DNA of 64,000 nt from Deltaproteobacteria bacterium GWC2_55_46 (GTDB lineage Bacteria; Desulfobacterota; GWC2-55-46): assembly GCA_001595385.3 (NCBI GenBank), contig LVEI03000003.1, positions 1 through 64,000 on the forward strand, given 5' to 3'. This document shows positions 803-28,475 of the stretch, piece by piece. The position numbers and the translations under genes were made by a program. Below the pieces are notes generated by a model. It was given only the letters and a program-made list of their open reading frames with translations, was not told where the DNA came from and ran no database searches. Each line of letters opens with the position of its first letter. Within the stretch, counting starts at the first letter, position 1.

Positions 803-3800
803 TTAGCGTCCGTAAATCTCTTCACGCCGCTCTTCTTCCAGGGCACGCTCCATATATGCCTTTGTGTAGGCACTCCCCGCCCTTCCAATTTCTTGAATGC
901 CAGGATCATTATTTTCGCAAAGCTCGCTAAAACGATGTACCCATGCTGACCAAAAAGCCGATTCTTTTCCTGTCCATGACCAACTATAACCCTGGATAGC
1001 ATCTGCAACATCTTTTGGTGAATACCCTGCGCTTAAAGCCACCTTTGCCTTCTCCACCCATTCTTTACTCCAAGGTTTCTCATGCTCCCATTTGATGGGT
1101 GCTAAATGAATACGGCTGTACACCTTCTTTGAAAGCAATAATCTATATAAGCTAAGATCGTCTCCTACCAAGTCGGCGGCAATCTCGGCATGACCAAAAT
1201 CGTCCGGCAATGCCTCCAATATTTTCCTGCGCGCTTCAATATCAAGTGAACGGATCGCCTTGTCGCATACGTCATAAAAATTCCTATACACGGAGCGTTC
1301 GTTAAATAAATTTGTCATTAGCCACTCTTGGGCAAGCGCCGAATCCTTAGCCAAGATCTCTCCCAGCCAGTAATCGTTTTCCTCCAAACGGAGAATCGCC
1401 TTCCGCCAATCTTCACCTAAGGAACCGATAGCTTTATCCTTCATCGCTTGCCAAATCCCAAGGGCGGCCTTGCTCGCAACTGAGTCGTTCTCATGTCGCA
1501 AAAGTAGAGTGCGGGTATCTTCAGGCACCTCGCCCCTCAGACAAAGAATTTCCACGGTCTGGTCAAAACCCTCCAGCTTGTGCATGACCTTATCAAGAAT
1601 ATCCGATGGCGGTGAGGTCATGGTTAAAAAAATTAAAATCGGTGCGTATTTATACTGAGGCGACTCCAGGCACTCGATGGAAATAGATTCCCATTCGGCT
1701 TCTTTGGCATTGACTGCTTCTCGCAAGAAAGGCACGACAAGGTCCGAAGGCAAGTTGGCCTCTATTGCTTTTCTTATCCAAGGAATTCTTTGTTTAACTC
1801 CTTTTGCCAATAATCCGCATAAATGTGGCGTCATTCTCGGCCAGCTTTTACCTGAGGCTTTGGCTTCAGCCTCGGCTTTTGCGATAAGTTCTATAACAAG
1901 CGCATGGTCTTTACTACTCAATTCCTTTGATAACTCTTCCACTGCTGACATCTGCCGCTTATGCTCAGTCTCCCAATCTTCTTCTATTCTCTCTCCTGGA
2001 AAAAAAATTTCAAAATATTTATCCAGGGGTACTTCGATTTCTATCCCTTTATTTTCAGCGATCTCTTTAATCTTTTGGAGCACGGCAGGATGCCCATGTG
2101 CTAAGCTAATGACATCTTTAATCATTTGGGTGACTATAGTCTTCACGATCTTATAAAATTCTTCAGGGTCTATTCTGACATTGGGTCCTGGATAGGCAAT
2201 ATTGCGAATTATCGTCAATATATGAGGCCAGTTCGATTCCCCATATGCCCTGATTATCTCGAAGGCTTTTGACCATAGATCCCCGATTCCTTTCAAATCC
2301 TGCGGAGTGACCACCCCATGAGAGAAGGTCACTGACATCCCAGAGCCCGGGTCTTGAGTGACTCTGTCAAATCTGGGCAGGAATACGAATGTTAAGGCAT
2401 GAAGCCCCACATGTGCGTCTCCACCGCCTGATAACCATTTTGAAATAGCATCAAGAAGCAGAGCTCTCCTTGAAATGACATCTTTGCTTCCAGGCCATGC
2501 AGACTTTATCCAATCTTCAATTAATCTAAGGGGATGGTCCGTTGTTGAATTAAGGGGACGCTCATCGCCAGTGGCAGCACTTAGAAGCAATGGAATAATA
2601 GATTCTGGAATATTACCTAAACACGCATGGGAAAGTTCTATCAACATCTCAGGATGTCGGCTCAGCGCCGTTCTTGACTCTTCTGGGCCCATCCATGCAT
2701 AAGCCACCCAAGCACTTTGAGGTTGGATTCTTTCCAGTAAATCGAGTAGGTCTGATGACGGTATGATAGCGCCTCGCGCTTTTGCACCAATTAACGTAAA
2801 AATGGTATCTCCAAGGTCTGGGCTGTTAACAATAAAGTACTCCGCATTTAATGACGTCGGGCCACTGTAAAATACATCCCTGACAAGAGGATAGCGTAAC
2901 TCCGCTGGTATTACTGAAAGTCGATCACGGCCGATATCGCGCAGGACACCTCCAGAAGCAAGCCCAGCCGTTATGGCCCTTACCCGAATCGATGTGAGTT
3001 CCAGCCCCTTGGCAACGCTTTCCATAGTCATGCCGGAATCCCCACCCATTGCAAAAGCCGCCAGGACATCCGTTGCTTCCTTTCCAACCAACGGCTCAAA
3101 AGAGGTGCGTATGGAACTGCTGAGCGCGTCGCCTAAGGCTACTCTACGAACGTCCCCCTGGAGGCAGAGATAAGAGAGGGTAACTGCAAGGCCTGGCCGA
3201 CCTTGAGCCTGATCCACGATTGATCTTACAAGCTCAACAGGCCCTCCTATCCCGGTATTTTTTATGACTTCGACAATGTGGTCGCGTGTCAAAAGATCAA
3301 GCTTGTGGATTTGAGAATCAGGCAGACTTAATATTCCCCTGATGGACTCTACGCCTCCTGGCCAACTGGACGTCAATATATCGAAGGAAATACCAAGCGC
3401 TCTTCTTAGTTGCAGAAGGTTCAAAAGCAAATCATTCCGTATATGGGCATCATCAACTATGATTGCTTTCGGTTGGGCGTCCCTTATCGCGCTGGCAAGA
3501 GATGTCCTGTCATCTGCTACGGCAAACAATCCTCCGCCGTCTTTGGCAAACTTGTGAAGCAGGAAGGTTTTACCCGAGCCTGGTTGACCAACCAATACGC
3601 GATCTCCAGAAGTGTTATTCAGCCACGAAAGGTCTGCATCGCGTCCAATGAGGGCATCGCCTATCAAAGGACGAAAACTGACAGGCACGACAGACAGGGC
3701 AGGCGGCTCCCCGGTTAGATTGAGAAGCTCACGGCACCAATGGGAATTGTGATAAAGCCGATCGGCTAAAGCGGCCTGGTCGTAAATTTGAATGAGCGTA

Positions 3801-4150
3801 AACCCCAACTCGGTTGCACGCTCCTCTAAATTCTTGCGTTTCTGCCCTGACAAAGCTTGTGATGTTGCAAGAATCGCTTCTCGACGAGGGCCTCCTTTGG
3901 AAATATAGGTTTCTAAATTAGAGGTAAGATTTCCAATTACATCGACTGATGTAGTGCTGACCAATGGGAAAGGACGCCCTTTCCCATCTGCGACTGCCCC
4001 ATCCATGCCTGCATCTGCTCCCCCTCGAATGGGAACCAAAGTCGGCCATTCAGCCCTCAGAAGGTCAGCGGCGCATTGTTCGAAAAGTTCCGGGTCTAAC
4101 TGGCCGTTAAGTCCTTCAATTATTTTTTTATAAAATGGGTCGCGTGTCAT
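803..4150 (-). CDS. STAND-like P-loop NTPase with nuclease-like N-terminal domain
   Basis: 1115 residues. Residues 1-150 resemble a restriction-endonuclease-like fold: an early FEQCAADLL helix, then GADAGMDG (44-51), then a strand with VSTTS where the family normally carries the catalytic Glu/Gln-x-Lys. Walker A is GQPGSGKT (188-195) and Walker B AIIVDDAH (229-236). The long remainder looks alpha-helical and repeat-like, as in the sensor part of STAND ATPases. No transmembrane segment is seen. The ATG follows the stop of the upstream small ORF without a gap, implying translational coupling, and the gene is last in the hsd operon. Architecture and setting resemble Avs-type antiphage NTPases, but membership of a named family is inference. 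Nuclease activity is doubtful because the catalytic Lys motif is not obvious. Confidence 0.75.
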   Translation of the reverse strand: MTRDPFYKKIIEGLNGQLDPELFEQCAADLLRAEWPTLVPIRGGADAGMDGAVADGKGRPFPLVSTTSVDVIGNLTSNLETYISKGGPRREAILATSQALSGQKRKNLEERATELGFTLIQIYDQAALADRLYHNSHWCRELLNLTGEPPALSVVPVSFRPLIGDALIGRDADLSWLNNTSGDRVLVGQPGSGKTFLLHKFAKDGGGLFAVADDRTSLASAIRDAQPKAIIVDDAHIRNDLLLNLLQLRRALGISFDILTSSWPGGVESIRGILSLPDSQIHKLDLLTRDHIVEVIKNTGIGGPVELVRSIVDQAQGRPGLAVTLSYLCLQGDVRRVALGDALSSSIRTSFEPLVGKEATDVLAAFAMGGDSGMTMESVAKGLELTSIRVRAITAGLASGGVLRDIGRDRLSVIPAELRYPLVRDVFYSGPTSLNAEYFIVNSPDLGDTIFTLIGAKARGAIIPSSDLLDLLERIQPQSAWVAYAWMGPEESRTALSRHPEMLIELSHACLGNIPESIIPLLLSAATGDERPLNSTTDHPLRLIEDWIKSAWPGSKDVISRRALLLDAISKWLSGGGDAHVGLHALTFVFLPRFDRVTQDPGSGMSVTFSHGVVTPQDLKGIGDLWSKAFEIIRAYGESNWPHILTIIRNIAYPGPNVRIDPEEFYKIVKTIVTQMIKDVISLAHGHPAVLQKIKEIAENKGIEIEVPLDKYFEIFFPGERIEEDWETEHKRQMSAVEELSKELSSKDHALVIELIAKAEAEAKASGKSWPRMTPHLCGLLAKGVKQRIPWIRKAIEANLPSDLVVPFLREAVNAKEAEWESISIECLESPQYKYAPILIFLTMTSPPSDILDKVMHKLEGFDQTVEILCLRGEVPEDTRTLLLRHENDSVASKAALGIWQAMKDKAIGSLGEDWRKAILRLEENDYWLGEILAKDSALAQEWLMTNLFNERSVYRNFYDVCDKAIRSLDIEARRKILEALPDDFGHAEIAADLVGDDLSLYRLLLSKKVYSRIHLAPIKWEHEKPWSKEWVEKAKVALSAGYSPKDVADAIQGYSWSWTGKESAFWSAWVHRFSELCENNDPGIQEIGRAGSAYTKAYMERALEEERREEIYGR

Positions 4151-4450
4151 TTATTTAAAATACTTTTTCATCTTCCTGCTTTGAAGAAGTACTATCCCAT
4201 GTTTTATTAAAACCTTTTCTATTGTGGCTGGCAAATCCATTAAAGTATGAAACTGTAGCGGATTGAGTGGCCTGATTCCATGCGGTTCATTTGGCTCCAT
4301 TCTGACAACACCACTTGCCCAAGCATTTTTTGGTATTACTTCCCCTTGGCCCTCGGCTATATTATTTGTTCAAAAACGGATTTTTACTTCTATCATTTTT
4401 TCGCCATGTGTAGCCAACTGGGCTGTCACGTTGTTATTTTGTTTTCTCAT
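4151..4450 (-). pseudogene. Small conserved-looking gene interrupted by an in-frame TGA
   Basis: ATG at 4450 has a good Shine-Dalgarno (AAGGAG, 7 nt away). The frame runs 26 codons, meets TGA at 4370-4372 (codon 27), then continues open for 72 more codons to TAA at 4151-4153, which abuts the ATG of the NTPase gene. Codons 8-26 read VTAQLATHGEKMIEVKIRF, and after the TGA TNNIAEGQGEVIPKNAW and later FHTLMDLPATIEKVLIKHGI. This is compositionally normal protein sequence on both sides, without a frame change. TGA differs from TGG (Trp) by one base. The simplest reading is a recent nonsense mutation. Readthrough or a sequence error cannot be excluded. Function unknown; context suggests a partner of the NTPase or of the type I system. 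Confidence 0.7.
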
Positions 4451-4501: not shown

Positions 4502-5692
4502 TCAATACAGCTCTCCCTTAAACGCCTTATCTAAAACAGACGGCAGCATGGCGTTGAGCTCTGCCGTGGTTTCAGCCTGAAGATGTTTCAGCGCATCCAC
4601 CTTTGCCTGTAGGCCGTCCAGGTAGGCGACGATGCGGCGTTGTTCGGGAAGAGGGGGAACAGGTATTTCAAATGCCTCAATCTGAGCCTTAGTGAATCCC
4701 TGTCGTGTCGCCCCCTTTTGCTGATCATTGATAAAACTTTGAATCAATGGCTGACTAAGCCAATACATTAGGTATCTTGAACTTAAAGACTCGTCTGGCC
4801 GTATAATAGCAACATGCTGATTAACATTTGCTTCCATCAAATCTAAAGGAGCACAAGCAACACGACCAATTGAGGCTCCTGTGATATTAAGAAGGACGTC
4901 GTTTTGTCTAACCTTAGTATTAGACATGGAATCATGAGTCTTTATATCAATGAAGGCTATATTTTCCCACTGAAACTTACGCATTCTCACGTTCATGCTA
5001 CGTATAAACGGAATGCCTGTTGATAAATATGTAGCTCGACCTCCTTTTGGTGTAGAGCCGCTACCGATTTTTGAAACTAATTTCGACAGATGCTTCCGTT
5101 CAAAATTTAGTTCAGCAAACGCTTCTCCAACTGCTGATTCAAACAAGGCCTCCGCCTCTTCTACTGCTTGTCGCCGGAGGCCGCGTGCCTCTTCTATCTT
5201 TGCGGCCAGTTCCTCAAGCCTCGCCACTATCCGCTTTTGCTCTGAGAGTGGGGGTAGGGGAATTTCTATCTCTAAGAACCGTTCGGGGCGGATACGATTT
5301 TTGCCACTTGTCCCACGAGATTTTTCATCACACTTTTCCCAAAAGTTCCTTGTCTTAGTCTGCCAATGAAACCATTTTGAATCCAATTTTTTTTTAATAG
5401 GAGTAAATATTGGGAACTCTCCAGAAGCATAACAACCTTCAAGTTGCTCGGATACAACCGCCACACTTCCGTTTCTTGCCCAAATCTTATTCACAATGAT
5501 ATCATCTGCCTCAACTCGCGAAAACGTCTTGTACTTTGTTTGCCCTCCGTCGATTGTTTCACGCTCATAAGCACCTTCACCCCACAGTCTGACACCTATT
5601 TGACGGTATTCAACACCTGGGATAGGTGTTTCAGGACGTTCAACTGGCGAGATAACCTCTCCCAACGGCACCATAGGCCAAGCCTTACTCAC
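4502..5692 (-). CDS. hsdS: Type I restriction-modification specificity subunit
   Basis: 396 residues with the two-fold layout of HsdS: target-recognition domain 1, a conserved helix opening with PLPPLSEQKRIVARLEEL, target-recognition domain 2, and a second helix opening with PVPPLPEQRRIVAYLDGL. The two helices form the coiled coil that spaces the half-sites of a bipartite recognition sequence and binds two HsdM subunits. Start ATG 5692 overlaps the stop of the upstream nuclease gene by 4 nt (ATGA), so the two are co-translated. It follows hsdM in the operon, separated from it by the YhcG-type gene. The DNA sequence recognised cannot be read from the protein. Confidence 0.95.
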   Translation of the reverse strand: MSKAWPMVPLGEVISPVERPETPIPGVEYRQIGVRLWGEGAYERETIDGGQTKYKTFSRVEADDIIVNKIWARNGSVAVVSEQLEGCYASGEFPIFTPIKKKLDSKWFHWQTKTRNFWEKCDEKSRGTSGKNRIRPERFLEIEIPLPPLSEQKRIVARLEELAAKIEEARGLRRQAVEEAEALFESAVGEAFAELNFERKHLSKLVSKIGSGSTPKGGRATYLSTGIPFIRSMNVRMRKFQWENIAFIDIKTHDSMSNTKVRQNDVLLNITGASIGRVACAPLDLMEANVNQHVAIIRPDESLSSRYLMYWLSQPLIQSFINDQQKGATRQGFTKAQIEAFEIPVPPLPEQRRIVAYLDGLQAKVDALKHLQAETTAELNAMLPSVLDKAFKGELY

Positions 5693-6879
5693 CTCTTAGC
5701 CCTCCTGCCTGTCTTCAATGCCGTCCGTTCCTCGATGATTTTTCTTGTCTTATCAACTTCGGCCGCAAGGGTCTTTTCGGCCGGCAGGGCAGTACGGTAT
5801 TCGGCGGCCAAGACCTTGTTAGGGAGCCCTTCAAGGGCGTAATGGGCCACAGCATGGTCCTTCTGGGCGCAAAGGATCAGGCCAACAGGCGGGTTTTCAT
5901 CGGAATGGGTCCAATGCTCACGGGCGTAATTGAGGTAAAGGTGCATCTGCCCGGCATCGGCATGGGTAAACTTGCCAAGCTTCAAGTCTATTATCACAAG
6001 GCACCGGAGGCGGCGATGGTAAAAGAGGAGATCTACCCGGTACCACTCATCTCCAACACGCAAGCGGCGCTGACGGCCGACAAATGCGAAATCACCTCCA
6101 AGCTCAAGGAGGAAACTTTCAAGTTGATGGACGAGGGCCGCTTCCAGGTCGTTCTCCGAGTATTCATCCTTCAGCCCCAGGAACTCCAATACAAACGGGT
6201 CCTTGATCTCCTCCTCGGGGTTAACTATGTCTCCGGAAAGCTGTTTGCCTCCCTTCTTGAGCATGGCGGCCTTGTTTCTGGAGAGCATCGTGCGCTCATA
6301 AAACTGGCAATCGATCTGCCTTTCCAGCTGGCGAACGGTCCACCCTCCGCGCAATCCCTCCTTTTCGTAAAAGGCGCGGGCGTCAGGACTTTTTACAGAA
6401 AGGAGTTTTACATAATTAGACCAGGGAAGAGGGAAGCGTTGTGCAATTTCAGATAGGCTAAATTGTGCAGACACCGTCTGCATTTTTTCATCGCTTAATT
6501 GGCCGGACGCTGTCTGACTTTTTTGAAATGATAAAGAACTATCTAATTGTGCAGACGCTGTCTGCACAATTGAGGCGTATGCCAAATAGAAAGACCTGAT
6601 CTGGAAAAGATTCCTTCTGCCAAACCCCCGCCCAAATCTCTTAGTTAAATCCTCTGAAAGCCTTTCTATGAGCTGCTCTCCGTAATCGGCTTTAATGCGT
6701 CCCTTCTGCTCATACTCCACAATCCTACGCCCTATTTCCCAATAGGTCGCGGTCATGACGGCGTTTGTGGCCCTTGCAGAGGCGCGGCGGGCAGATTCAA
6801 GAAGCTCGGCTACACCGCTAAGAACAGTATTGTAACCGGCTAATTTTTGATTTTTTGGAGTAAGGGTTTTCTTTGCCAT
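5689..6879 (-). CDS. YhcG-type PD-(D/E)XK nuclease domain protein (DUF1016)
   Basis: 396 residues. The N-terminal part is DUF1016-like (ATYWEIGRRIVEYEQKG, FGRRNLFQIRSFYLAY), and the C-terminal part is a PD-(D/E)XK nuclease fold with core VDLLFYHRRLRCLVIIDLK. The middle (about residues 103-145) is a low-complexity insert with three repeats of a QTASAQL-like peptide, encoded by palindromic DNA repeats. The gene lies between hsdM (2-nt gap) and hsdS (4-nt overlap), so it is an integral operon member. YhcG-family genes are known passengers of type I R-M operons; their role is not settled. The ATG is followed by MAKKTLTPKNQKLAGYNTVL, a usual start for the family. Confidence 0.9.
   Translation of the reverse strand: MAKKTLTPKNQKLAGYNTVLSGVAELLESARRASARATNAVMTATYWEIGRRIVEYEQKGRIKADYGEQLIERLSEDLTKRFGRGFGRRNLFQIRSFYLAYASIVQTASAQLDSSLSFQKSQTASGQLSDEKMQTVSAQFSLSEIAQRFPLPWSNYVKLLSVKSPDARAFYEKEGLRGGWTVRQLERQIDCQFYERTMLSRNKAAMLKKGGKQLSGDIVNPEEEIKDPFVLEFLGLKDEYSENDLEAALVHQLESFLLELGGDFAFVGRQRRLRVGDEWYRVDLLFYHRRLRCLVIIDLKLGKFTHADAGQMHLYLNYAREHWTHSDENPPVGLILCAQKDHAVAHYALEGLPNKVLAAEYRTALPAEKTLAAEVDKTRKIIEERTALKTGRRAKR
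6461..6571. repeat. Three palindromic repeats inside the YhcG gene
   Basis: Three copies of a core of the form GCAGAC-N3-GTCTGC lie at 6466-6481, about 6501-6516 (degenerate: CGGACGCTGTCTGA) and 6545-6571. The last is a perfect palindrome with 12-nt arms (AATTGTGCAGAC) around GCT. They are translated into a repeated QTASAQL-type peptide. A fourth copy sits in non-coding DNA at 17338-17352, so the DNA element rather than only the peptide seems to be what recurs. Confidence 0.75.
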
Positions 6880-6881
6880 AT

Positions 6882-8429
6882 CTAAATTCCCTTTTTCAGA
6901 ACCTGTCTTATCTCAGCCATAATCTCCAGAATGCGTTCTTCCTTCTTTACGATATCTTCCACCAGCTTCTCGGGCGGCATGTGCTCAAAATCCTGCTTGC
7001 TGTTCGGATTTTTGATATCGAGGTTAAACCCATTTTCAATGATACTCTTGACCGGCACCTTCCAGGCCAGCTCATTTTTCTTGCGGTTCTTCCACCAAGC
7101 AAGGCAAGGCTTGAATTCATCAAACTGGATGGGCTGGGTCTTGGTATAGTTCTTTTTCCCTGTTGGCAAGGGGTGCTCGTAATACCATACCTCTTTTGTA
7201 GGGCCGGAACGGTCAAAGAAAAGAAGGTTGGTCGGTATGCCTGTATAAGGCGCGAATACTCCGTTTGGAAGGCGGATAATAGTATGGAGATTAAAGTCCT
7301 TGAGGAGCTCTTCTTTTATCCTTGCGCAGACGCCATCCCCGAAAAGGGTGCCGTTCGGAACGACCACGCCTGCCCGCCCTCCATATTCGGAGCCGTAACC
7401 AGGCCGTTTGAGCTTACGCATGATGAGCTGAAGAAAAAGAAGCGCTGTCTCGGCGGTCTGCTTCTCCGGAGGAAAATTTGAAAGTATGCCCTTTTCCTCC
7501 TCACCGCCAAAAGGCGGGTTGGTGATTATGATATCGACGCGGTCCTTGTCCCCTATCTCTTTAAGAGGAAAGCGGAGTGCGTTGCCAGGGTCTATCTGCG
7601 GGGATTCAAGGCCATGCAAAAGCAGGTTCATCTGGGCAAGGAGATATGGAAGATTTTTTGCTTCTCCTCCACGAATGCTTCCGGTCTGCAATAACTCGCG
7701 GTCTTTAACCGTCTTGCACTGCTTTTCGAGATGATTGAACGCCTCCACTATAAATCCGCCTGTGCCGCACGCCGGGTCAAGAACTGTTTCACCGAGACGC
7801 GGGTCTAAAGCATCAACCATAAAACGGACAACCGCACGGGGTGTATAGAACTCGCCGGAATCTCCGGCGGCGTCCCGCATCTCCTTGAGCATTGACTCAT
7901 AAAGGTGTCCAAGAGTGTGTATCTCATCGGAAGATGTAAAATGGATGCCGTTGACCTTATTGATTACATCCCGCAACAGATAGCCATTTATCATGCGGTT
8001 TACGGTGCCCTTGAATACCGTCGCTACAACATCGCGCCTGTCTCCCCCGTTTGCGCCCTGCAAAGTACGGAGATAGGAAAAAAGACCCGGGCCGCGCTTC
8101 CCGTCCGGACGCATCGCCTCATCATTGTTTACAAATGCTATAAGCTCATCGCCCGTAATCCCGTCCTCTTTTGAGGCCCAGTCGCGCCAACGGTAAGGCG
8201 GCTCTATGGCTGGACGGAACCTTTTGCCCGAAAGAACAGCTTCCTGCTCCCTGATGCTCTCCATATCGTCAAGGAATTTGAGGAACATGATCCAGGTAAG
8301 CATGGGCAGACGGTCAAGATCGCCATTCAGCCCCTTGTCTTTCCTCATTATGTCACGGGCGGATTTTACGAGACTGCCAAGCTGCTGGGCGGTAGTTAAT
8401 GGCTGTTTGCTGTCCTTAGCTCTTGGCAT
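6882..8429 (-). CDS. hsdM: Type I restriction-modification N6-adenine methyltransferase subunit
   Basis: 515 residues. An N-terminal helical HsdM domain precedes a Rossmann methyltransferase core with SAM-binding motif I DPACGTGG (218-225) and catalytic motif IV NPPF (304-307), diagnostic of N6-adenine methylases. FYTPRAV (194-200) is also typical. With HsdS it methylates the recognition site; with HsdR it forms the restriction complex. The start overlaps the preceding small gene by 14 nt, and the next gene begins 2 nt after its stop. Both motifs are intact, so it is probably active. Confidence 0.97.
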   Translation of the reverse strand: MPRAKDSKQPLTTAQQLGSLVKSARDIMRKDKGLNGDLDRLPMLTWIMFLKFLDDMESIREQEAVLSGKRFRPAIEPPYRWRDWASKEDGITGDELIAFVNNDEAMRPDGKRGPGLFSYLRTLQGANGGDRRDVVATVFKGTVNRMINGYLLRDVINKVNGIHFTSSDEIHTLGHLYESMLKEMRDAAGDSGEFYTPRAVVRFMVDALDPRLGETVLDPACGTGGFIVEAFNHLEKQCKTVKDRELLQTGSIRGGEAKNLPYLLAQMNLLLHGLESPQIDPGNALRFPLKEIGDKDRVDIIITNPPFGGEEEKGILSNFPPEKQTAETALLFLQLIMRKLKRPGYGSEYGGRAGVVVPNGTLFGDGVCARIKEELLKDFNLHTIIRLPNGVFAPYTGIPTNLLFFDRSGPTKEVWYYEHPLPTGKKNYTKTQPIQFDEFKPCLAWWKNRKKNELAWKVPVKSIIENGFNLDIKNPNSKQDFEHMPPEKLVEDIVKKEERILEIMAEIRQVLKKGI

Positions 8430-8700
8430 TTTCCGCTATAGCTCTCAGGTATTTTTCCCAAATTTTGTTTCTAACGTCAGACTCTGCTTGATCAATCAGA
8501 TGACTTACAGCATCATAACCGATCTGTTGCTCAAGATCATATCTTGTCGTAAAATCAACATGATAAGAATAGCCATTCGCCGGCTTGTCTTCTATGAAAG
8601 CCCGAATAATATATTCATCTATATCACCCTTAGATACCTTAATCTGGTAATTTTTACCATCGAACTGGAATTGTTTTGCGTGTTTTGGTAATTCCTTCAT
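8416..8700 (-). CDS. Small protein of unknown function in the hsd operon
   Basis: 94 residues, charged and soluble, rich in Asp, Glu and Lys, with no motif I recognise. ATG 8700 follows an AGGAGG ribosome-binding site by 6 nt, and the last 14 nt overlap hsdM in another frame. That spacing and overlap are good evidence for a real, co-translated gene between hsdR and hsdM. Its function is unknown; accessory or anti-restriction roles are possible but nothing in the sequence shows one. Confidence 0.75.
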   Translation of the reverse strand: MKELPKHAKQFQFDGKNYQIKVSKGDIDEYIIRAFIEDKPANGYSYHVDFTTRYDLEQQIGYDAVSHLIDQAESDVRNKIWEKYLRAIAENAKS

Positions 8701-8751: not shown

Positions 8752-11121
8752 TTAGTCCGCATAAAGAAGCGTTTGCATTTGATTTACGGCATCCCTCAAT
8801 CTTTCCGGCCCGCCAAACATCGCGGCAATCTCCAAAGTATTTCCATGTTCCGATATTGGCGGTACTTTGAGAACATCAGGGATAACGAACTGAGCCGTGC
8901 CGTGCTCCGCGTATTTTTCCAAAAGCTCATTAAGTATGGCCTTTGCTTCAGGCCCGAACTGGTCAAAGAAGTCCTTCTTGTCTTTACGCAACCGGTCGGC
9001 CCGCTCCCGCCTTGTGCGTAGCGGCGAGTTAAAGGCTATATGACAAAGGAGATCGAACGGGTCAGCGTCAGGCTGATTTGCAGATTCAGCCAGGTCATCG
9101 AAGTTTATCCCCCGCTCTTCAAGTTTTGCTATGATTTCTGAGCGTTGGACAGGGTCGGCCCATAATGTCTGCACCTCAGCAGCATTCGGGTACAGCATTC
9201 GGACCTTCTCCGCGGCATAGTCGGTGAACTTGACAACACGGAGCTGTTTTCCATCAGGGTCAAGTTCGTAAACAAGATGGGTGGTAACCTCTACAAAACC
9301 ATTATCAACATAGTATCTTTTCGGTTCTGCAGTGGGCGGCTCTGTGATGAGAGGAGGCTTTATATCTATAACTATTCCTTCATCCAAGATATCCTCTGAC
9401 TCGGTAACCTCTTCTTTTGTTACCTGTCCGGCCTCATCTACCACCTGCTCGCTTATAAGCGAAGGCTCCCCGTCAAAGGCAGGGTCGGCAAAAAGCCTTG
9501 TTGCGCTCCCAGTGTAATCAACGATGCTGAAGTAGAGCTTCCCGTAGTCATCCCTGACGCGAGTGCCCCTGCCTATTATCTGTTTGAACTCGGTCATGGA
9601 GTTGATTACCCTGGCAAGGACGACATTTTTACAGGTCGGTGCGTCAACCCCTGTGGTAAGTAGCTGTGATGTTGTTAGTATTACCGGCGTATTTGTCTCA
9701 AGCTCCTGGAATTTACTTAAGTATCCGCGCCCGATATCACCTTCATCAGAGGTAACCCTGCATACATAGTCAGGATGCCGCTGAACAAGGTCTGCATTCA
9801 GGTTATTAAGAGCGCGGCGCATTTCATCTGCATGTTCCTGGTTAACGCAAAAAACTATCGTCTTGGCAAAGCGGTCTGTTTTTCTCAGAAACTCTGTCAA
9901 ATGTCTTGCCATAGCTTCGGTACGAGCCCGCAAAGCAACAACCCTCTCAAAATCCTTTGTGTGGTATTCTCCGTCAGGTATTTCACGGCCATACCTGTCA
10001 AGCTCCCCCTGACTGGGACGCCAGCCAGCAGCATCGAAAGTCGTAATCACCCGGTGGACACGGTAGGGAGCCAGGAAACCGTCTTCTATCCCCTGCTTGA
10101 GGCTGTATTGATATATGGGATTGCCAAAATAACCGTAGGTGTCCCTGTTGTCGTCGCAAAGGGGTGTGGCCGTCATGCCAAGTTGATAGGCTGTTTTAAA
10201 ATACTCAAGGATCTCCCGCCAGTTGCTTTCATCACTTGCGCTGCCGCGATGACACTCATCTACGATGACGAGATCAAAAAAATCCGGAGAGTACTCTTTG
10301 TAAAGCCCAGGCCTTCGGTCATCTCTCGCGATAGCCTGATAAGTAGCAAAGTACATCTCGCGGGCCTTATTCGCTTCACCGTTTTCTATCTTCCAGCGGG
10401 CATCGCCGAAGGGCGCGAATGTCTTATCCTTTGGATCGTCCACCAGAATATTTCTATCAGCGAGGTAAAGGATTTTAGGGCGGCGGTAATCTCCTGTGCG
10501 GTTCCAACGGGCGTTCCAGAGCTTCGTGCATATCTGAAAGGCAACCACCGTTTTTCCAGTGCCTGTGGCCATGGTCAAAAGGATGCGACGTTTGCCTTGT
10601 AGAACCGCCTGGACAGCCCTGTTTATAGCAATATCCTGATAATAACGCGGAGTTTTCCCGCTTGAATGGTCATAAGGTGTAAGAAGCAGGTTGGCGGTTG
10701 AATCTTCATCAAGGCCATGGCCAATGCGAAGACGTTTCCAGAGCTCTTCGGGCGTAGGAAATGACTTAAGCTGAAGCTCCTTGCCGCTAAAATAGTCAAA
10801 TTCTATGATGTCGTGGCCGTTGGTCGAATAGGCAAACTTCAGCCCGAGGATTTCAGCATAGTCCTTGGCCTGCTGTAGTCCATCGCCAGGAGCTTTGTAA
10901 TGGGCCTTGGCTTCTACGATAGCCAAAGGGAAGTCGCGAGTATATCGCAAGAGATAGTCAGCCCTCTTTTGGGGGCGACGCCTTACCCTGGTTCCGGCAA
11001 CTACGATTCTGCCGTCAGTAAAGGTCTTCTGCTCCGTAAAGGAGTGCGGGTCGTTATCCCACCCAGCCTCAACTAGCTTGGGAACTACAAATTTTCGGCA
11101 GGTATCGGCTTCGTTAAACAT
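8752..11121 (-). CDS. hsdR: Type I restriction endonuclease, motor and nuclease subunit
   Basis: 789 residues. An N-terminal PD-(D/E)XK nuclease has Asp55 and the EAK motif (Glu70, Lys72). A superfamily 2 helicase motor follows, with Walker A TGTGKT (186-191), DECH (288-291) and TATP (317-320). The helical C-terminal region contacts HsdM/HsdS. The length fits the shorter, EcoEI-like HsdR group. HsdR translocates DNA using ATP and cleaves at a distance from unmethylated sites. It is the first gene of the leftward operon; the 51-nt gap to the next gene carries that gene's ribosome-binding site. All key residues are present. Confidence 0.96.
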   Translation of the reverse strand: MFNEADTCRKFVVPKLVEAGWDNDPHSFTEQKTFTDGRIVVAGTRVRRRPQKRADYLLRYTRDFPLAIVEAKAHYKAPGDGLQQAKDYAEILGLKFAYSTNGHDIIEFDYFSGKELQLKSFPTPEELWKRLRIGHGLDEDSTANLLLTPYDHSSGKTPRYYQDIAINRAVQAVLQGKRRILLTMATGTGKTVVAFQICTKLWNARWNRTGDYRRPKILYLADRNILVDDPKDKTFAPFGDARWKIENGEANKAREMYFATYQAIARDDRRPGLYKEYSPDFFDLVIVDECHRGSASDESNWREILEYFKTAYQLGMTATPLCDDNRDTYGYFGNPIYQYSLKQGIEDGFLAPYRVHRVITTFDAAGWRPSQGELDRYGREIPDGEYHTKDFERVVALRARTEAMARHLTEFLRKTDRFAKTIVFCVNQEHADEMRRALNNLNADLVQRHPDYVCRVTSDEGDIGRGYLSKFQELETNTPVILTTSQLLTTGVDAPTCKNVVLARVINSMTEFKQIIGRGTRVRDDYGKLYFSIVDYTGSATRLFADPAFDGEPSLISEQVVDEAGQVTKEEVTESEDILDEGIVIDIKPPLITEPPTAEPKRYYVDNGFVEVTTHLVYELDPDGKQLRVVKFTDYAAEKVRMLYPNAAEVQTLWADPVQRSEIIAKLEERGINFDDLAESANQPDADPFDLLCHIAFNSPLRTRRERADRLRKDKKDFFDQFGPEAKAILNELLEKYAEHGTAQFVIPDVLKVPPISEHGNTLEIAAMFGGPERLRDAVNQMQTLLYAD

Positions 11122-20383: not shown

Positions 20384-21481
20384 CTATGGAAAAGCTGGGT
20401 ATGTAGTAGTTTCGACAAGCTGGAGCTTCCCCCTGCTACGTAATTGTAGGATTTGCTTGCCAAGTTCTTCCGCCAACCGAACCGGAACCGAATTTCCAAT
20501 CTGAAGCGCAATATGCGTGTTACAACCTAAGAAAACATATCCATCAGGGTATGACTGAAGAGCGGCAGCTTCGCGCAGACTAATCGCTCTATCCTGAGTC
20601 GGATGTCCGTATCTTCCATTGGAAATGCTGTGACATCGGCCTGTCAGAGTAGGGGCGGGTGCATTCCATGCCATTCTTCCGTACACATCCGTGTGACCTT
20701 CATAGTTCTTTTTATGGCATTCGAGCCGGAGATGTTCCGGCCAGACTCGCCTATCGCCGCCATCATGTGGCGTATTACGGAGACGTTCCATATTCAAAGG
20801 GGCTACCGAAGCCGACACATGGTTTGGAATGCCTGGGTGGCATTCCCCTGCTCTGATGGGAGGAAAATGAGAAATCGCCTGATAAACCGTCTTGAATGGC
20901 AGAAGTGACGGTCCGTATTTCGGTTTGGGCAACGAGGGTTTAATGCCTCTCATAGCAATCATAACCAAGCGGCGACGATTTTGAGGCACGCCATATTGCT
21001 TCGCATCGAGCACTTCGTAAACGTACTGATATCCATTTCTTTCAAGTAGTCTCAAGAACCTACGAAAAGTACTATTCCCTGGAACTTTGGCAATCCCCGG
21101 AACATTTTCGATAAGAACCTGCCCAGGCAAGGCGGCTTCGACCAATCTGCCGAACTCGCTCAGCAGTGTGGCAGATTGCAAACGCTTCTTACCCTTGCGC
21201 TGTTGACTGAATGGCTGACACGGAGCACATCCGGCAAAAAGCATATCCCGAAAAGAATCTGTCCGTGCGAGCCTTTTCAATTCCTTCACATCAACTTTCT
21301 TTATGTCAGTGTGGACAAACCGTGTGCCAGAGTTGTTATATTCATATGTGGAGCAACATCTTTCGTCTTTGTCAAACCCGGCAATGACGTTAATACCCGC
21401 GTCCAGAAGGCCGCGAGTCATCCCGCCTGCACCACAAAAAAAATCAATGGCTTTAATAGACATCCTCTCTTTTACTCTCAT
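20384..21481 (-). CDS. DNA cytosine-C5 methyltransferase
   Basis: 365 residues from ATG 21481, which begins 2 nt after the stop of the upstream gene; ATG 21463 (MSIKAIDFFCG) is an alternative. Motifs: I DFFCGAGGMTRGL, IV with catalytic Cys GCAPCQPFS, VI ENVPG, VIII QNRRRLVMIA, X QIGNSVPVRLA. All are intact, so it should transfer a methyl group from SAM to cytosine C5. The recognition domain (between VIII and X) cannot be decoded. Last gene of the four-gene Vsr/kinase/receiver/methylase operon; the usual partner, a cognate type II endonuclease, is absent. Confidence 0.95.
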   Translation of the reverse strand: MRVKERMSIKAIDFFCGAGGMTRGLLDAGINVIAGFDKDERCCSTYEYNNSGTRFVHTDIKKVDVKELKRLARTDSFRDMLFAGCAPCQPFSQQRKGKKRLQSATLLSEFGRLVEAALPGQVLIENVPGIAKVPGNSTFRRFLRLLERNGYQYVYEVLDAKQYGVPQNRRRLVMIAMRGIKPSLPKPKYGPSLLPFKTVYQAISHFPPIRAGECHPGIPNHVSASVAPLNMERLRNTPHDGGDRRVWPEHLRLECHKKNYEGHTDVYGRMAWNAPAPTLTGRCHSISNGRYGHPTQDRAISLREAAALQSYPDGYVFLGCNTHIALQIGNSVPVRLAEELGKQILQLRSRGKLQLVETTTYPAFP

Positions 21482-21483
21482 AG

Positions 21484-22584
21484 TTATGTCGCTATAATTT
21501 CTTCGCACCAAGCCTCCAAATCCCGATCAGGCAATCCCGGTCGACACGCGTTCTGCATGTAGGCCCATGATATCATTTCCCGAAAAGGACTATCAATTGA
21601 CGCTATCCTTAGATAAGGCTTGCTCTCGAGGCCTATATTATTTAGAGGAATCAGTTCCAACTTTTGCAAATAGGCAGCCATGGAAGGAATTCTATCTGGT
21701 AATGCAGGAAATGGGATTATTGTCTTGAAGTAACCCTGAGACAAAACAGTTTTACTCAGATTTTTCTTAGCATCTTTTTTTATAGATGGGCTTGCAGAAA
21801 TCTCAGCACCGACTTTTTGCAAACCTTCTTTGATGGGTATGCAACAGGCAACCAGCACATTCTCAACCTTCGGCGAACGGCCTGGTGATGAAACCATGTC
21901 GCATGACGGAGTCAGGACTATACGAAATGAAGACGAGTCTGTGGCAGAACCGTCTGCTTTTCTCAAAACGTCACCCAGCTTGGGATCTGCACTGACTGGG
22001 GGGCAAAGATATTTCTCCCAGCTTGCCAGCTTCTCTCCATGTCTGGAGAGGTCATCCATCAACGCGGCCAAACGCCTTCTACCAGACCTTTGAATCGCAT
22101 CACTTCGTTTCGTAGAGTCTGTAAAAGCTTTGAATGCATAAGGAGCTACTTCCCTGAGAGCAAGTGCGAATTCCTTGAGAATGTGCTTTTCAGCCTCATG
22201 CAGAGATACAACATGAGGGCGCATCTCTTCAATCTTGGCTTTTAATTTAGAAACGGACCTACTTCCTTTTTTAATACAGCTTACAAAAGGATGCTTTTCC
22301 TTGGTTTCTTCAATAAGCTCAGGATGCGCCGAATATACAATAATCGGACAAAAGCGGTTTTTCCAAATCTGATCATAAACATCAACTCCAGGGGCTTTGG
22401 GCTCTGAAGAAAATCCGCCTGCAACAAGATCCAGAATAACTACATCTGGATTAAAGCGATCCATGGTTTCTTCAACCTGCGAAAAGTTATCTATTTGACA
22501 CGTGCTAATGCTACCATCTGTCTTAAGATTACTGATGACAGGTTCAACGCTTTTCGGTTCATCATCTATAAACAACAGACGCAT
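21484..22584 (-). CDS. Receiver-domain protein with uncharacterised C-terminal domain
   Basis: 366 residues. N-terminal receiver: FIDDEP (Asp7, Asp8), phospho-acceptor in VVILDLVAGG (Asp52), switch Ser in VYSAH, Lys in CIKKGS. The C-terminal 240 residues are not a known DNA-binding output; they contain VLTPSCDMV and VLVACCIPI, and may be a binding or enzymatic domain. AGGAGG lies 7 nt before the ATG, and the gap to the kinase-like gene is 4 nt. It is the probable phospho-acceptor of that protein. Role in the operon unknown; may gate the methylase or nuclease. Confidence 0.85.
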   Translation of the reverse strand: MRLLFIDDEPKSVEPVISNLKTDGSISTCQIDNFSQVEETMDRFNPDVVILDLVAGGFSSEPKAPGVDVYDQIWKNRFCPIIVYSAHPELIEETKEKHPFVSCIKKGSRSVSKLKAKIEEMRPHVVSLHEAEKHILKEFALALREVAPYAFKAFTDSTKRSDAIQRSGRRRLAALMDDLSRHGEKLASWEKYLCPPVSADPKLGDVLRKADGSATDSSSFRIVLTPSCDMVSSPGRSPKVENVLVACCIPIKEGLQKVGAEISASPSIKKDAKKNLSKTVLSQGYFKTIIPFPALPDRIPSMAAYLQKLELIPLNNIGLESKPYLRIASIDSPFREMISWAYMQNACRPGLPDRDLEAWCEEIIAT

Positions 22585-22588
22585 ACTT

Positions 22589-24769
22589 TTACCTCCTACC
22601 TTCTCGTGTATCCTTCAGCGGCAGATCGAAAGCAAAAGATGCTCCGCCTATTGTCCCGGGGTGTTTAACAGACATGCGACCACCGTATTGCGCCACCAAC
22701 TCCGATGCGACGGTAAGCCCCATGCCGATTCCGCCGGGTTTCCTGGTAACGCCAGGCCAGAAGACCTTTTCGACATCATCTTCATGCAGGCCTGGTCCGG
22801 TATCGTGAACCCATACCCTGACACGCGTATCCTCATTGATGATTACAAGCCGAAATTCAAGTTTACGTTTCTCCTTTGGAACCTGGCTCAGCCAGTAGGA
22901 TGCGTTGGTGATAAGATTCAATAAAATCGCATCGAGTTCACCGGGGTCTACCTCAACATGGGTCGCTGTGTCAGGCACATGATAATTAATGTTATTTCGT
23001 TTGATTTCACCACTCAGGAGTGTAAGGCACTCCCGTATGCGTTCCTCCAGGACGGAATTGCGCTTTCTGCGTCTGAAAGATCGACTTGCCAGCGGGGAAA
23101 ACGTATCGGCAAGTGTTTCCAGCGAGTTAACGGCATCGTCAGCGCAACTATACTCTCCAGCGAGATCCTTGTCCTTAAACGGCCCGAATCTGCTCTTGAT
23201 AAACTCAAGAAAACTTCCGAAAGCAGTTGTTCTGTTCCTTATCTCATGAACAAGCATTTGAGCTATCGTACCAACTGTAGCCATTCGGCTGTAATAAACA
23301 AAACGTTCTTGAATAGCCTTGCGTGCGGAATCAATGGAGGCATTGAAAGCACGTAGGACAGGCACTGCCTCGGTAGCCTGAGCACCCTCCTCGGCAAGGG
23401 CTATGACCTCGGCAAGCAGCCCCTCGGTAGACAGCTCCCCAAACAGGTCCTCCATCGGTTTTTCACGTTCTGGCTTGATGCGCTCCACATTACGTTCATT
23501 TTCGAGAAGACCGACAATTGCTGCAAGAAGCTCTTCAAATTCTGCCACCTCAAGACTCGATACCAAGCGCTCACGGTCACTGGTGTCTCGGATTCCAGGA
23601 TTTTTTTCGGCAGAGATTGAAACATAGCCAACGAGTTGGCTTGTGCTCATTCGTTCACCTACTCTACTGACACGCCTCAAGTCGAGCCCCAGCCAGTCGC
23701 GAGCATTATCGGATTTTGGCAGAACAAGAACGCCGTCACGGTACACGGAAATACCCTTGTGCGTACGAATGGTTTTACGGACCTGACTTTTTTGAAAATC
23801 GAATCTGTCTGCTATCTCCTGGGTATCTTCAGCTCCGATGTCCCATGCACGGATTTCGAAGGAAAAGGGACCGCAAATCGGTTTCTTTTCGTCAAATTTC
23901 AAGCGTGTGCTATCCTGAATGCTGTCAAGAACCTGCTTCCATGTCAGGTGTAGGTCTCTCTTTCTCTTTTTGCCTTCTTTTATAGGATTAAATCTATATG
24001 TACATTTTACAGCACCATTATTGTCAACCTCACCCGTGATTCTATACTTCGGCTTGGAGAGGAAGTAAGGCGCTTCAATTTTGACCGTATTCGTTTCTGC
24101 TTCTCCATGCCTCAACAAAAAAATTTTAAAATCCACTATGTCAGCGAATGGCGAAATCAGGCGTGCAAGATTTTCTTCAAGGTCAGCAATCTTCTCGTTA
24201 TCCCATTGTCCATTAAGCCCGTATATCCGTAATCGAGTTCCGGAAATGCGGAATGGCGTGTTTTCCGGATACTGTCGACAATTCGCGAAGCAGGCAGAAA
24301 TATCATCTCCTTCGGCAAGGCTCGACCAATTAACGGTTACCTCCCAACAATCGGATCCCTTGGCTTGAGTCAACATGTTTAAGCGGTTCCCTAAACGAGC
24401 AACGGAAAGTCGTCCAAGCCCCTTTTCTCCGACAACACGACGTATTTTTTTATCACTCTCTACGAACGGGTTCTTTTCCTTAAACGGGGTTGCAACGAGG
24501 CACCATACATCTTCGATGCTCCACCTGCTCATCCCGTTGCCGTCATCTTCGATCTCGAGATAGTCACCTTCATTGGGATCATTACAAAATCTAATCCAAA
24601 CGTTACCGGCAAACGCATCATATGAATTCTTAACCAATTCAATTACGGCGACCACATCATTCGTGACAAGATCGGCACCCAGTGCAGCAAACACTCTTGG
24701 ATGCATGCGGAAGGGGATCTTGTTGAATCCGTTTTTATTATTAGATGTATTTTCCGCCATCGGCTTCAC
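22589..24769 (-). CDS. Dual GHKL ATPase: MutL/MORC-like N-terminus fused to a histidine-kinase core
   Basis: 726 residues from GTG 24769, which overlaps the vsr stop (GTGA) with GGAG 5 nt upstream; ATG 24760 is an alternative. First GHKL module: N-box AVIELVKNSYDA (Glu44, Asn48), DDGNGM (75-80), GEKGLGR (114-120). Second module: H-box LVHEIRN with His508, N-box NLITNAS, DTGPG (656-660), GGIGMGL. No transmembrane segment, so it is cytoplasmic. The first module resembles Hsp90/MutL/MORC ATPases, which act as ATP-driven clamps; the second is a complete kinase. Next to a receiver protein, a phosphorelay triggered by the clamp is a reasonable inference. Confidence 0.9.
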   Translation of the reverse strand: MKPMAENTSNNKNGFNKIPFRMHPRVFAALGADLVTNDVVAVIELVKNSYDAFAGNVWIRFCNDPNEGDYLEIEDDGNGMSRWSIEDVWCLVATPFKEKNPFVESDKKIRRVVGEKGLGRLSVARLGNRLNMLTQAKGSDCWEVTVNWSSLAEGDDISACFANCRQYPENTPFRISGTRLRIYGLNGQWDNEKIADLEENLARLISPFADIVDFKIFLLRHGEAETNTVKIEAPYFLSKPKYRITGEVDNNGAVKCTYRFNPIKEGKKRKRDLHLTWKQVLDSIQDSTRLKFDEKKPICGPFSFEIRAWDIGAEDTQEIADRFDFQKSQVRKTIRTHKGISVYRDGVLVLPKSDNARDWLGLDLRRVSRVGERMSTSQLVGYVSISAEKNPGIRDTSDRERLVSSLEVAEFEELLAAIVGLLENERNVERIKPEREKPMEDLFGELSTEGLLAEVIALAEEGAQATEAVPVLRAFNASIDSARKAIQERFVYYSRMATVGTIAQMLVHEIRNRTTAFGSFLEFIKSRFGPFKDKDLAGEYSCADDAVNSLETLADTFSPLASRSFRRRKRNSVLEERIRECLTLLSGEIKRNNINYHVPDTATHVEVDPGELDAILLNLITNASYWLSQVPKEKRKLEFRLVIINEDTRVRVWVHDTGPGLHEDDVEKVFWPGVTRKPGGIGMGLTVASELVAQYGGRMSVKHPGTIGGASFAFDLPLKDTREGRR

Positions 24770-25260
24770 CTTTTCTCCGTTTTAGGATAGCTACCTTTGT
24801 AAGGCGATCTTGGAATGGAAAGTGTACACTGACGTGACTTTAAAAACTCTGCAGCACGAATAGCTATTCTGTCCAGACTTTCTCCCCTGACGACGCCCGG
24901 CCGTCGGAAGCTGCACTCCCAAATCACAAGGACACGCCAGCCGATTTCTTTAAGTTTGTGAATGGTATCCCTGTCTCGACAGCGGTTTCCTTCAAGCTTC
25001 TCCTTCCACCAGGTACGCCGTGTCTTTGGTATCTGCGAAAGGTGGCACCCATGGTGATGCCAAAAACATCCGTGCATGAAGATAACCGCAGAGTATTTAG
25101 GGAAGACCATATCCGGCTTGCCAGGCAGGTCGTGCCGATGCAGCCGAAATCGAAAGCCCATAGCAAAGAGACGCCGGCGCATTTCCAATTCAAGCTTTGT
25201 GTTCTTGGATCGAACGGCCGACATCATACGACTTCTGATTTCTTTACTTACTTTGGACAC
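24766..25260 (-). CDS. vsr: Vsr-type DNA mismatch endonuclease
   Basis: 164 residues. Vsr core: RSRMMSAVRSKNTKLELEMRRRL, catalytic Asp in LPGKPDMVFP, zinc and active-site region FMHGCFWHHHGCHL, and WRVLVIWECSFR near the end. Vsr nicks 5' of the T in T:G mismatches that arise from deamination of 5-methylcytosine. First gene of the operon whose last gene is a C5 methylase, the normal Vsr companion; the two intervening genes are unusual. In the absence of another nuclease it could also act as the effector. Confidence 0.95.
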   Translation of the reverse strand: MSKVSKEIRSRMMSAVRSKNTKLELEMRRRLFAMGFRFRLHRHDLPGKPDMVFPKYSAVIFMHGCFWHHHGCHLSQIPKTRRTWWKEKLEGNRCRDRDTIHKLKEIGWRVLVIWECSFRRPGVVRGESLDRIAIRAAEFLKSRQCTLSIPRSPYKGSYPKTEKR

Positions 25261-26964: not shown

Positions 26965-27174
26965 ATGAAACTTCTCAGCGTTAAAGAAATCTGCGTGCTC
27001 ATCCAGGCAAAGCCATCCACCATCTACCAATGGGCAGAGCTCGGGCAGATCCCGTGCTTCAAGATAAACGGCCTCCTGCGGTTTGAGGAAAAGGAGATCC
27101 TCGACTGGCTAAAGGATCAGAAAAGGGTGTATAATGTCGGCCGTGCAGGTAGAAGGCCCGGAAAGGAGGTATAG
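26965..27174 (+). CDS. Excisionase-like HTH protein
   Basis: 69 residues forming a single MerR-like winged HTH: LLSVKEICVLIQAKPSTIYQWAELGQIPCFKINGLLRFEEKEILDWL, in pieces, typical of Xis/AlpA recombination-directionality factors. The integrase starts 4 nt after its stop, so the two are co-expressed. It probably bends the attachment-site DNA and directs excision of the island. Confidence 0.85.
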   Translation: MKLLSVKEICVLIQAKPSTIYQWAELGQIPCFKINGLLRFEEKEILDWLKDQKRVYNVGRAGRRPGKEV

Positions 27175-27178
27175 GCAA

Positions 27179-28345
27179 ATGGGCCTCTACAAACGAAAGG
27201 ACTCGCCGCACTGGTGGATGTCCTTCAAGATAGGAAACCGGCGGATTTTCGAATCCACCGGCACTGAGAATAAAAAGCTCGCTCAGCGAAAGCACGCAAA
27301 CAGGTTAATCGAGCTGGAGGAAAGGCAGCTCGGCTCGTCAGCTAAGATCGACGGGAAAACGCCTTTTTGCGACCTCGCGAACCAGGTTCTAAAGTGGGCA
27401 GAATGGCAACGGGCCTACAAGGACAAGAAAACTCATGTCAAGTACCTCATCGAGGCGTTCGGCAATCTCGCGCTCAAGGATTTCACGACGCGCACGGTTG
27501 AGCTCTACTACCGCGGCTTTACCGATTCCGGCAGGACAGTCTCGACGGCAAACAGGTACCTTCAGACGTTGAAGGCGATGTTCACCAAGGCCGTTGAATG
27601 GGATCTGGTTGAAGAAGAGGTCTTGAAGCGCGTGCGCCGGGTCAAGCTGTTGCCGGAGAACAACAGGCGCTTACGGTTCCTTTCAAGGGTGGAAGGGCAG
27701 GCACTTATAAACGCCTGCGAGCCGCACTTGAAGCCTATCGTGATAACCGCGCTCAATACCGGCATGAGGAGAGAGGAGATACTTTCCCTCGAATGGGGAA
27801 AGCACGTTGACCTGAAGCACGGGTTCATACTCCTCGACAGGACCAAGAACGGCGAGCGACGCGAGGTTCCCATCAACCAGATCTTGAAGGGCGTGTTCCA
27901 GGGCCTTGTGCGGCACATCAACAGCCCCTATGTTTTCACGGACAAGGCTGGCAGGAGGTTCAGGGACCTGAAGCGGTCTTTTTCATCGGCCTGCAGGAAA
28001 GCGGAATGGGACAAGTGTTCGGCCTGTAGCTTTGAGCGGCAAAAATCCGGGGAAGAGAGCCCGGGCAATTGTCCTCAATGCGGCAAGGAGATGTTCCGGG
28101 TAGCCGGGATCAATGACTTCCGTTTTCACGACCTAAGGCATACCTTCGCAAGCTGGCTCGTGATGGCAGGGGTTGACCTTACGACCGTGAGCAGGCTCCT
28201 TGGCCACAAGAGCCTTACGATGACGCTTCGGTACTCGCACCTTGCGCCGTCGCACATGGTCAAGGCGGTCGCTGTCCTTGAAAACGGTTACGATTTGGTT
28301 ACGCTGGGTGAAAAAGAGGGTAGAGAACGACGCGCAACCCCATAA
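27179..28345 (+). CDS. Tyrosine integrase of the island
   Basis: 388 residues from ATG 27179 (AGGAGG 9 nt upstream); the upstream in-frame start lies inside the excisionase gene. Arm-binding-like N-terminus (GLYKRKDSPHWWMSFKIGNRR), SAM-like core-binding domain (about 60-155), catalytic domain with Arg197 (NTGMRREE), Lys223, His317-x-x-Arg320, His343 (LLGHKS) and nucleophile Tyr352. A Cys4 insert lies between the Lys and His-x-x-Arg motifs: Cys280, Cys283, Cys298, Cys301, a likely zinc ribbon. The stop lies 53 nt from the 3' end of an initiator tRNA gene, the likely target site. Confidence 0.95.
   Translation: MGLYKRKDSPHWWMSFKIGNRRIFESTGTENKKLAQRKHANRLIELEERQLGSSAKIDGKTPFCDLANQVLKWAEWQRAYKDKKTHVKYLIEAFGNLALKDFTTRTVELYYRGFTDSGRTVSTANRYLQTLKAMFTKAVEWDLVEEEVLKRVRRVKLLPENNRRLRFLSRVEGQALINACEPHLKPIVITALNTGMRREEILSLEWGKHVDLKHGFILLDRTKNGERREVPINQILKGVFQGLVRHINSPYVFTDKAGRRFRDLKRSFSSACRKAEWDKCSACSFERQKSGEESPGNCPQCGKEMFRVAGINDFRFHDLRHTFASWLVMAGVDLTTVSRLLGHKSLTMTLRYSHLAPSHMVKAVAVLENGYDLVTLGEKEGRERRATP

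Positions 28346-28397: not shown

Positions 28398-28475
<78 letters not shown>

Follow-up and report, generated by a model that had tools for sequence, protein, structure and literature searches.

A probable, fairly recent nonsense mutation in a small accessory gene of a type I restriction-modification operon

The 64,000-nucleotide stretch of DNA analysed here (the window) carries a type I restriction-modification operon on its minus strand. It comprises hsdR (8752-11121), encoding a restriction enzyme with an EcoEI-like C-terminus, hsdM (6882-8429) for the methyltransferase, a gene for a DUF1016/YhcG nuclease (5689-6879; PADLOC PDC-S02) and hsdS (4502-5692) for the specificity subunit. Between hsdR and hsdM lies an ORF of 94 aa (8416-8700) that has a very strong Shine-Dalgarno (SD) sequence, overlaps the hsdM start and matched no family. 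As in known type I operons with an inserted DUF1016 nuclease gene, the genes are on one strand with short gaps and all three subunits are full length; the difference here is that a small ORF and a gene for a STAND-like NTPase are appended downstream. The NTPase gene (803-4150) is intact and encodes 1115 aa with the motifs GQPGSGKT (Walker A), IIVDDAH and GRPGLA. Its STAND assignment comes from these motifs as read in the sequence, the Pfam match being weak and found for a relative in another genome (G324) only (AAA_16, 3e-4; nSTAND3, 0.005).

The small gene begins with an ATG (4450-4448) properly spaced behind a good SD, AAGGAG (anti-SD duplex -8.0 kcal/mol). Its first 26 codons (4373-4450; MRKQNNNVTAQLATHGEKMIEVKIRF) hold the opening of a conserved core, from M19-I-E, and run into an in-frame TGA (4370-4372) whose next base is A (UGA-A). 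The same frame then continues through 72 further codons to a TAA (4151-4369, with the TAA at 4153-4151), and the ATG of the NTPase (4150-4148) follows with a gap of 0 nt. The earlier note on this DNA gave the coordinates of this layout exactly and omitted the strand, which is minus for both genes. The TGA is in the context TTTTTGA, where a slip by one base in either direction runs into a stop only a few codons on. Because the shifted frames close so soon, neither a one-base shift nor an indel error can explain the intact downstream frame, whereas a substitution can, and a frameshift bypass of the TGA at the T run was rejected on these grounds. No pronounced stem-loop was found 3' of the TGA, and the coding strand showed no terminator-like or promoter-like signal above chance that explains the site. 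An AlphaFold model of the read-through small protein was too poor for use (pLDDT 43).

UGA is a stop codon in this genome and the code is standard, as had been proposed. The genome encodes RF2 with its canonical CTTTGAC autoregulatory frameshift site (AGGAGCTTTCTTTGAC), an arrangement that makes sense only if UGA terminates. Using genes other than the examples of the earlier note, we also found that hsdS and the DUF1016 nuclease gene of the same operon both end in TGA. The tRNA genes of the genome, all 43 of which were located, include none with a UCA anticodon. The genome gave no tRNA-Sec match above the family cut-off, and the sub-threshold matches, checked with ARAGORN, were ordinary tRNAs. 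The anticodon stem of the tRNA-Trp is complete at 5 bp, and the molecule has G24 and A9; the changes that allow tRNA-Trp(CCA) variants to read UGA have been named (PMC13092985), and none of them is present here.

Queries with a single sequence, whether of the small protein or of the NTPase, found no relatives in the genome collection, plasmids, phages or viral contigs. Relatives of the small gene were reached only through a search in the class to which G324 belongs, for which the query was the small protein fused to the NTPase, and then with a profile. The class search returned four relatives of the small protein from one genus (50-60% identity, E-values of 7e-31 to 9e-25), and the profile search added one from a phage contig, the most distant copy at 46% identity. 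The sample thus consists of four genomes of a single genus, which are not independent witnesses, and one phage contig. Alignments of the four genomic relatives to the read-through query start at query residue 6, 11 or 12 and end at about residue 99, and all five alignments cross the TGA. All five reading frames are uninterrupted and all five relatives have Trp at the column of the TGA, within F-W-T; none has TGA at the site. The conserved core opens with M19-I-E-[VL] throughout.

Since the alignments of the relatives run through the TGA, the two halves are, judged by homology, one gene beyond chance. The view that a single gene is split by the TGA is thereby upheld, with Trp as the conserved residue at codon 27, and the outcome that was to refute it, homologues ending at codon 26, is contradicted by relatives that continue through the site. 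When viral contigs were scanned for the motif with either TGG or TGA allowed, only the known phage relative was recovered, with TGG; the other 18 of the 19 matches were rejected as chance reads of unrelated sequence. We likewise rejected a profile match in another genome (G330) that also holds a TGA: it scores 16-17 bits, its E-value is weak over the 395 genomes searched, it has no F-W-T, and its TGA lies elsewhere in the frame.

The small protein (about 99 aa) belongs to a rare, unannotated family that has no entry in Pfam, NCBIfam, PADLOC or PHROGs, and we found no solved structure related by sequence to it or to the NTPase. The closest relative (58% identity) comes immediately after a gene for a 749-aa DNA methylase (N6_N4_Mtase) whose N-terminus is nuclease-like by eye (locus L014, 10821-13389). 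The phage copy (locus L018, 5989-6249) is intact and sits among phage structural genes; its contig has genes for a terminase, a portal protein and a capsid protein, identified by reading the ORFs, so phages are also among the carriers of the family. The three other relatives are in unrelated neighbourhoods.

We consider it likely that the TGA arose naturally and fairly recently, by a nonsense mutation that turned a Trp codon of the small accessory gene into TGA. A conserved Trp codon near the start of the protein would have been converted to a stop. Ribosomes that initiate at the good SD would then make a 26-residue peptide that includes no more than the opening of the conserved core, and the small protein would be lost. 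The earlier note had left loss or bypass open as alternatives; loss is favoured because TGA occurs in none of the relatives and no suppressor tRNA was found, and conserved bypass of the TGA finds no support in the sequences compared.

The part of the gene beyond the TGA appears well preserved. Its 72 codons contain no second stop or frameshift and keep 17 of the 18 columns that are conserved in the other sequences, matching the result for the intact relatives when these were omitted one at a time. By a rough calculation, neutral divergence has stayed below about 0.13-0.21 substitutions per site since the lesion arose. Such preservation points either to recent damage or to constraint that still acts on the region. 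Among 48 genomes of the order no close orthologue of the small gene was found. This conservation also fits readings other than a nonsense mutation, as bypass or an assembly error predicts the same; from the sequence it would be expected alike under a recent mutation, a substitution error in the assembly or continuing constraint.

An assembly base error, with a sense codon and an intact gene in the true genome, is one of these, and we regard it as unlikely. A single substitution would account for everything; no other lesion was found, and both the operon and the remainder of the small gene are intact. Against this, the commonest long-read error is a one-base indel in the T run, which would shift the frame, and here the frame is kept; the genome is also in 3 contigs and 100% complete.

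Leaky reading of the stop, in which the near-cognate tRNA-Trp decodes UGA-A at a few percent and so supplies a low dose of the full-length protein and of coupled NTPase, which is tolerated or selected as dose control, seems quite improbable. The conserved residue, Trp, is the one that near-cognate reading would insert, and the downstream conservation is kept. An A following UGA, as is found here, raises leakiness in E. coli. This reading is opposed by the absence of TGA at the site in all five relatives, by a tRNA-Trp without suppressor features and by the want of a pronounced stem-loop after the TGA. The site does share a UGA at a conserved Trp position with genes read by the tRNA-Trp(CCA) variants (PMC13092985), but it differs from them in the 5-bp anticodon stem, G24 and A9 of the tRNA, in an intact RF2 and in that a single gene is affected. 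More specifically, low-level read-through by the normal tRNA-Trp could serve to control the amount of a small defence protein and, through coupling, that of a STAND-like NTPase that is possibly self-toxic; we regard this proposal as very improbable.

It is hardly credible that the 26-codon ORF stands on its own, as a genuine leader peptide or short gene, with the downstream frame a separate ORF or a chance one. A strong SD and a start codon do precede it, but the alignments of the relatives carry on without a break through the TGA, M19-I-E-V and F-W-T included, and the in-frame ATGs past the TGA (codons 51, 71 and 94) have SDs that are weak, missing or badly spaced; continuous homology already refutes this reading. 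Selenocysteine insertion or reassignment of UGA has a negligible probability, as it has only the bare in-frame TGA in its favour and is opposed by the lack of a tRNA-Sec above the cut-off (the weaker matches being ordinary tRNAs), by relatives with Trp and not Cys, by RF2 with its autoregulatory site and by the TGA codons that end neighbouring genes.

A nonsense mutation in the small gene may also reach the NTPase. The NTPase start has no SD (anti-SD +0.3 kcal/mol), and its gap of 0 nt from the small-gene stop falls within the coupling range of about -8 to +10 nt (PMC10666635). Since the start has no SD and directly follows that stop, NTPase translation is probably reduced by the TGA. The premature TGA leaves ribosomes 219 nt short of the NTPase start; in reporters of native gene pairs of E. 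coli and Haloferax, coupling was almost entirely lost once the upstream stop was moved 20-38 nt away (PMC10666635). Ribosomes stopping 219 nt ahead of an SD-less start would thus be expected to fail in termination-reinitiation coupling, and less NTPase would be made. The leader of the NTPase gene is A/U-rich and weakly folded (-4.8 kcal/mol), which may allow some SD-independent initiation. The reduction suggested by the earlier note is plausible. The pair resembles known termination-reinitiation coupled pairs (PMC6728339, PMC10666635) in being unidirectional, with a 0-nt gap and an SD-less downstream gene, and in such pairs an early upstream stop is expected to uncouple the downstream gene, as here. 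The differences are that the premature stop here would be natural and that the coupling is deduced from sequence.

The idea of the small gene and the NTPase as a conserved module is not supported by the relatives found. A whole-genome search of the phylum yielded one NTPase relative, full length and 45% identical (in G324); it stands alone after an apparent transposase remnant, with no small gene upstream and with a strong SD of its own (anti-SD -12.2 kcal/mol). Conversely, no relative of the small gene was found beside such an NTPase.

The description of the defence module as disarmed also proved too strong, as hsdR, hsdM, hsdS, the DUF1016 nuclease gene and the NTPase gene are all full length; the type I restriction-modification genes, which lie upstream, should be unaffected by the TGA. 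The mutation is ordinary in kind. It matches nonsense-mutated accessory genes of other bacterial defence islands in that a single premature stop interrupts a gene that is otherwise intact and has intact relatives, and the island here is, like theirs, horizontally acquired; there is no difference in kind, and the possible knock-on effect on a coupled NTPase is a detail. Its value lies in being a clear and checkable case, in a defence operon, of a probable natural nonsense mutation that may also impair the adjacent ATPase gene by disrupting translational coupling. A further outcome is a rare and unannotated family of small proteins, encoded next to a gene for a DNA methylase, within a restriction-modification operon and in the genome of a phage.

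Positions 1-28474 of the window are island-like, with a GC content of about 42-53%, compared with about 55% past 27 kb, and a tyrosine recombinase gene (27134-28345) lies beside a tRNA-Met gene (28401-28474). A second defence-like cluster, also on the minus strand (20384-25260), has overlapping or near-overlapping genes for a Vsr endonuclease, a 726-aa protein with two HATPase_c-type matches, a response-regulator-like protein and a C5 cytosine methyltransferase. A transposase remnant (171-575; rve core, IS30-like by eye) lies right where the contig begins, 200-odd bases past the end of the NTPase gene, and the contig may end at this repeat.
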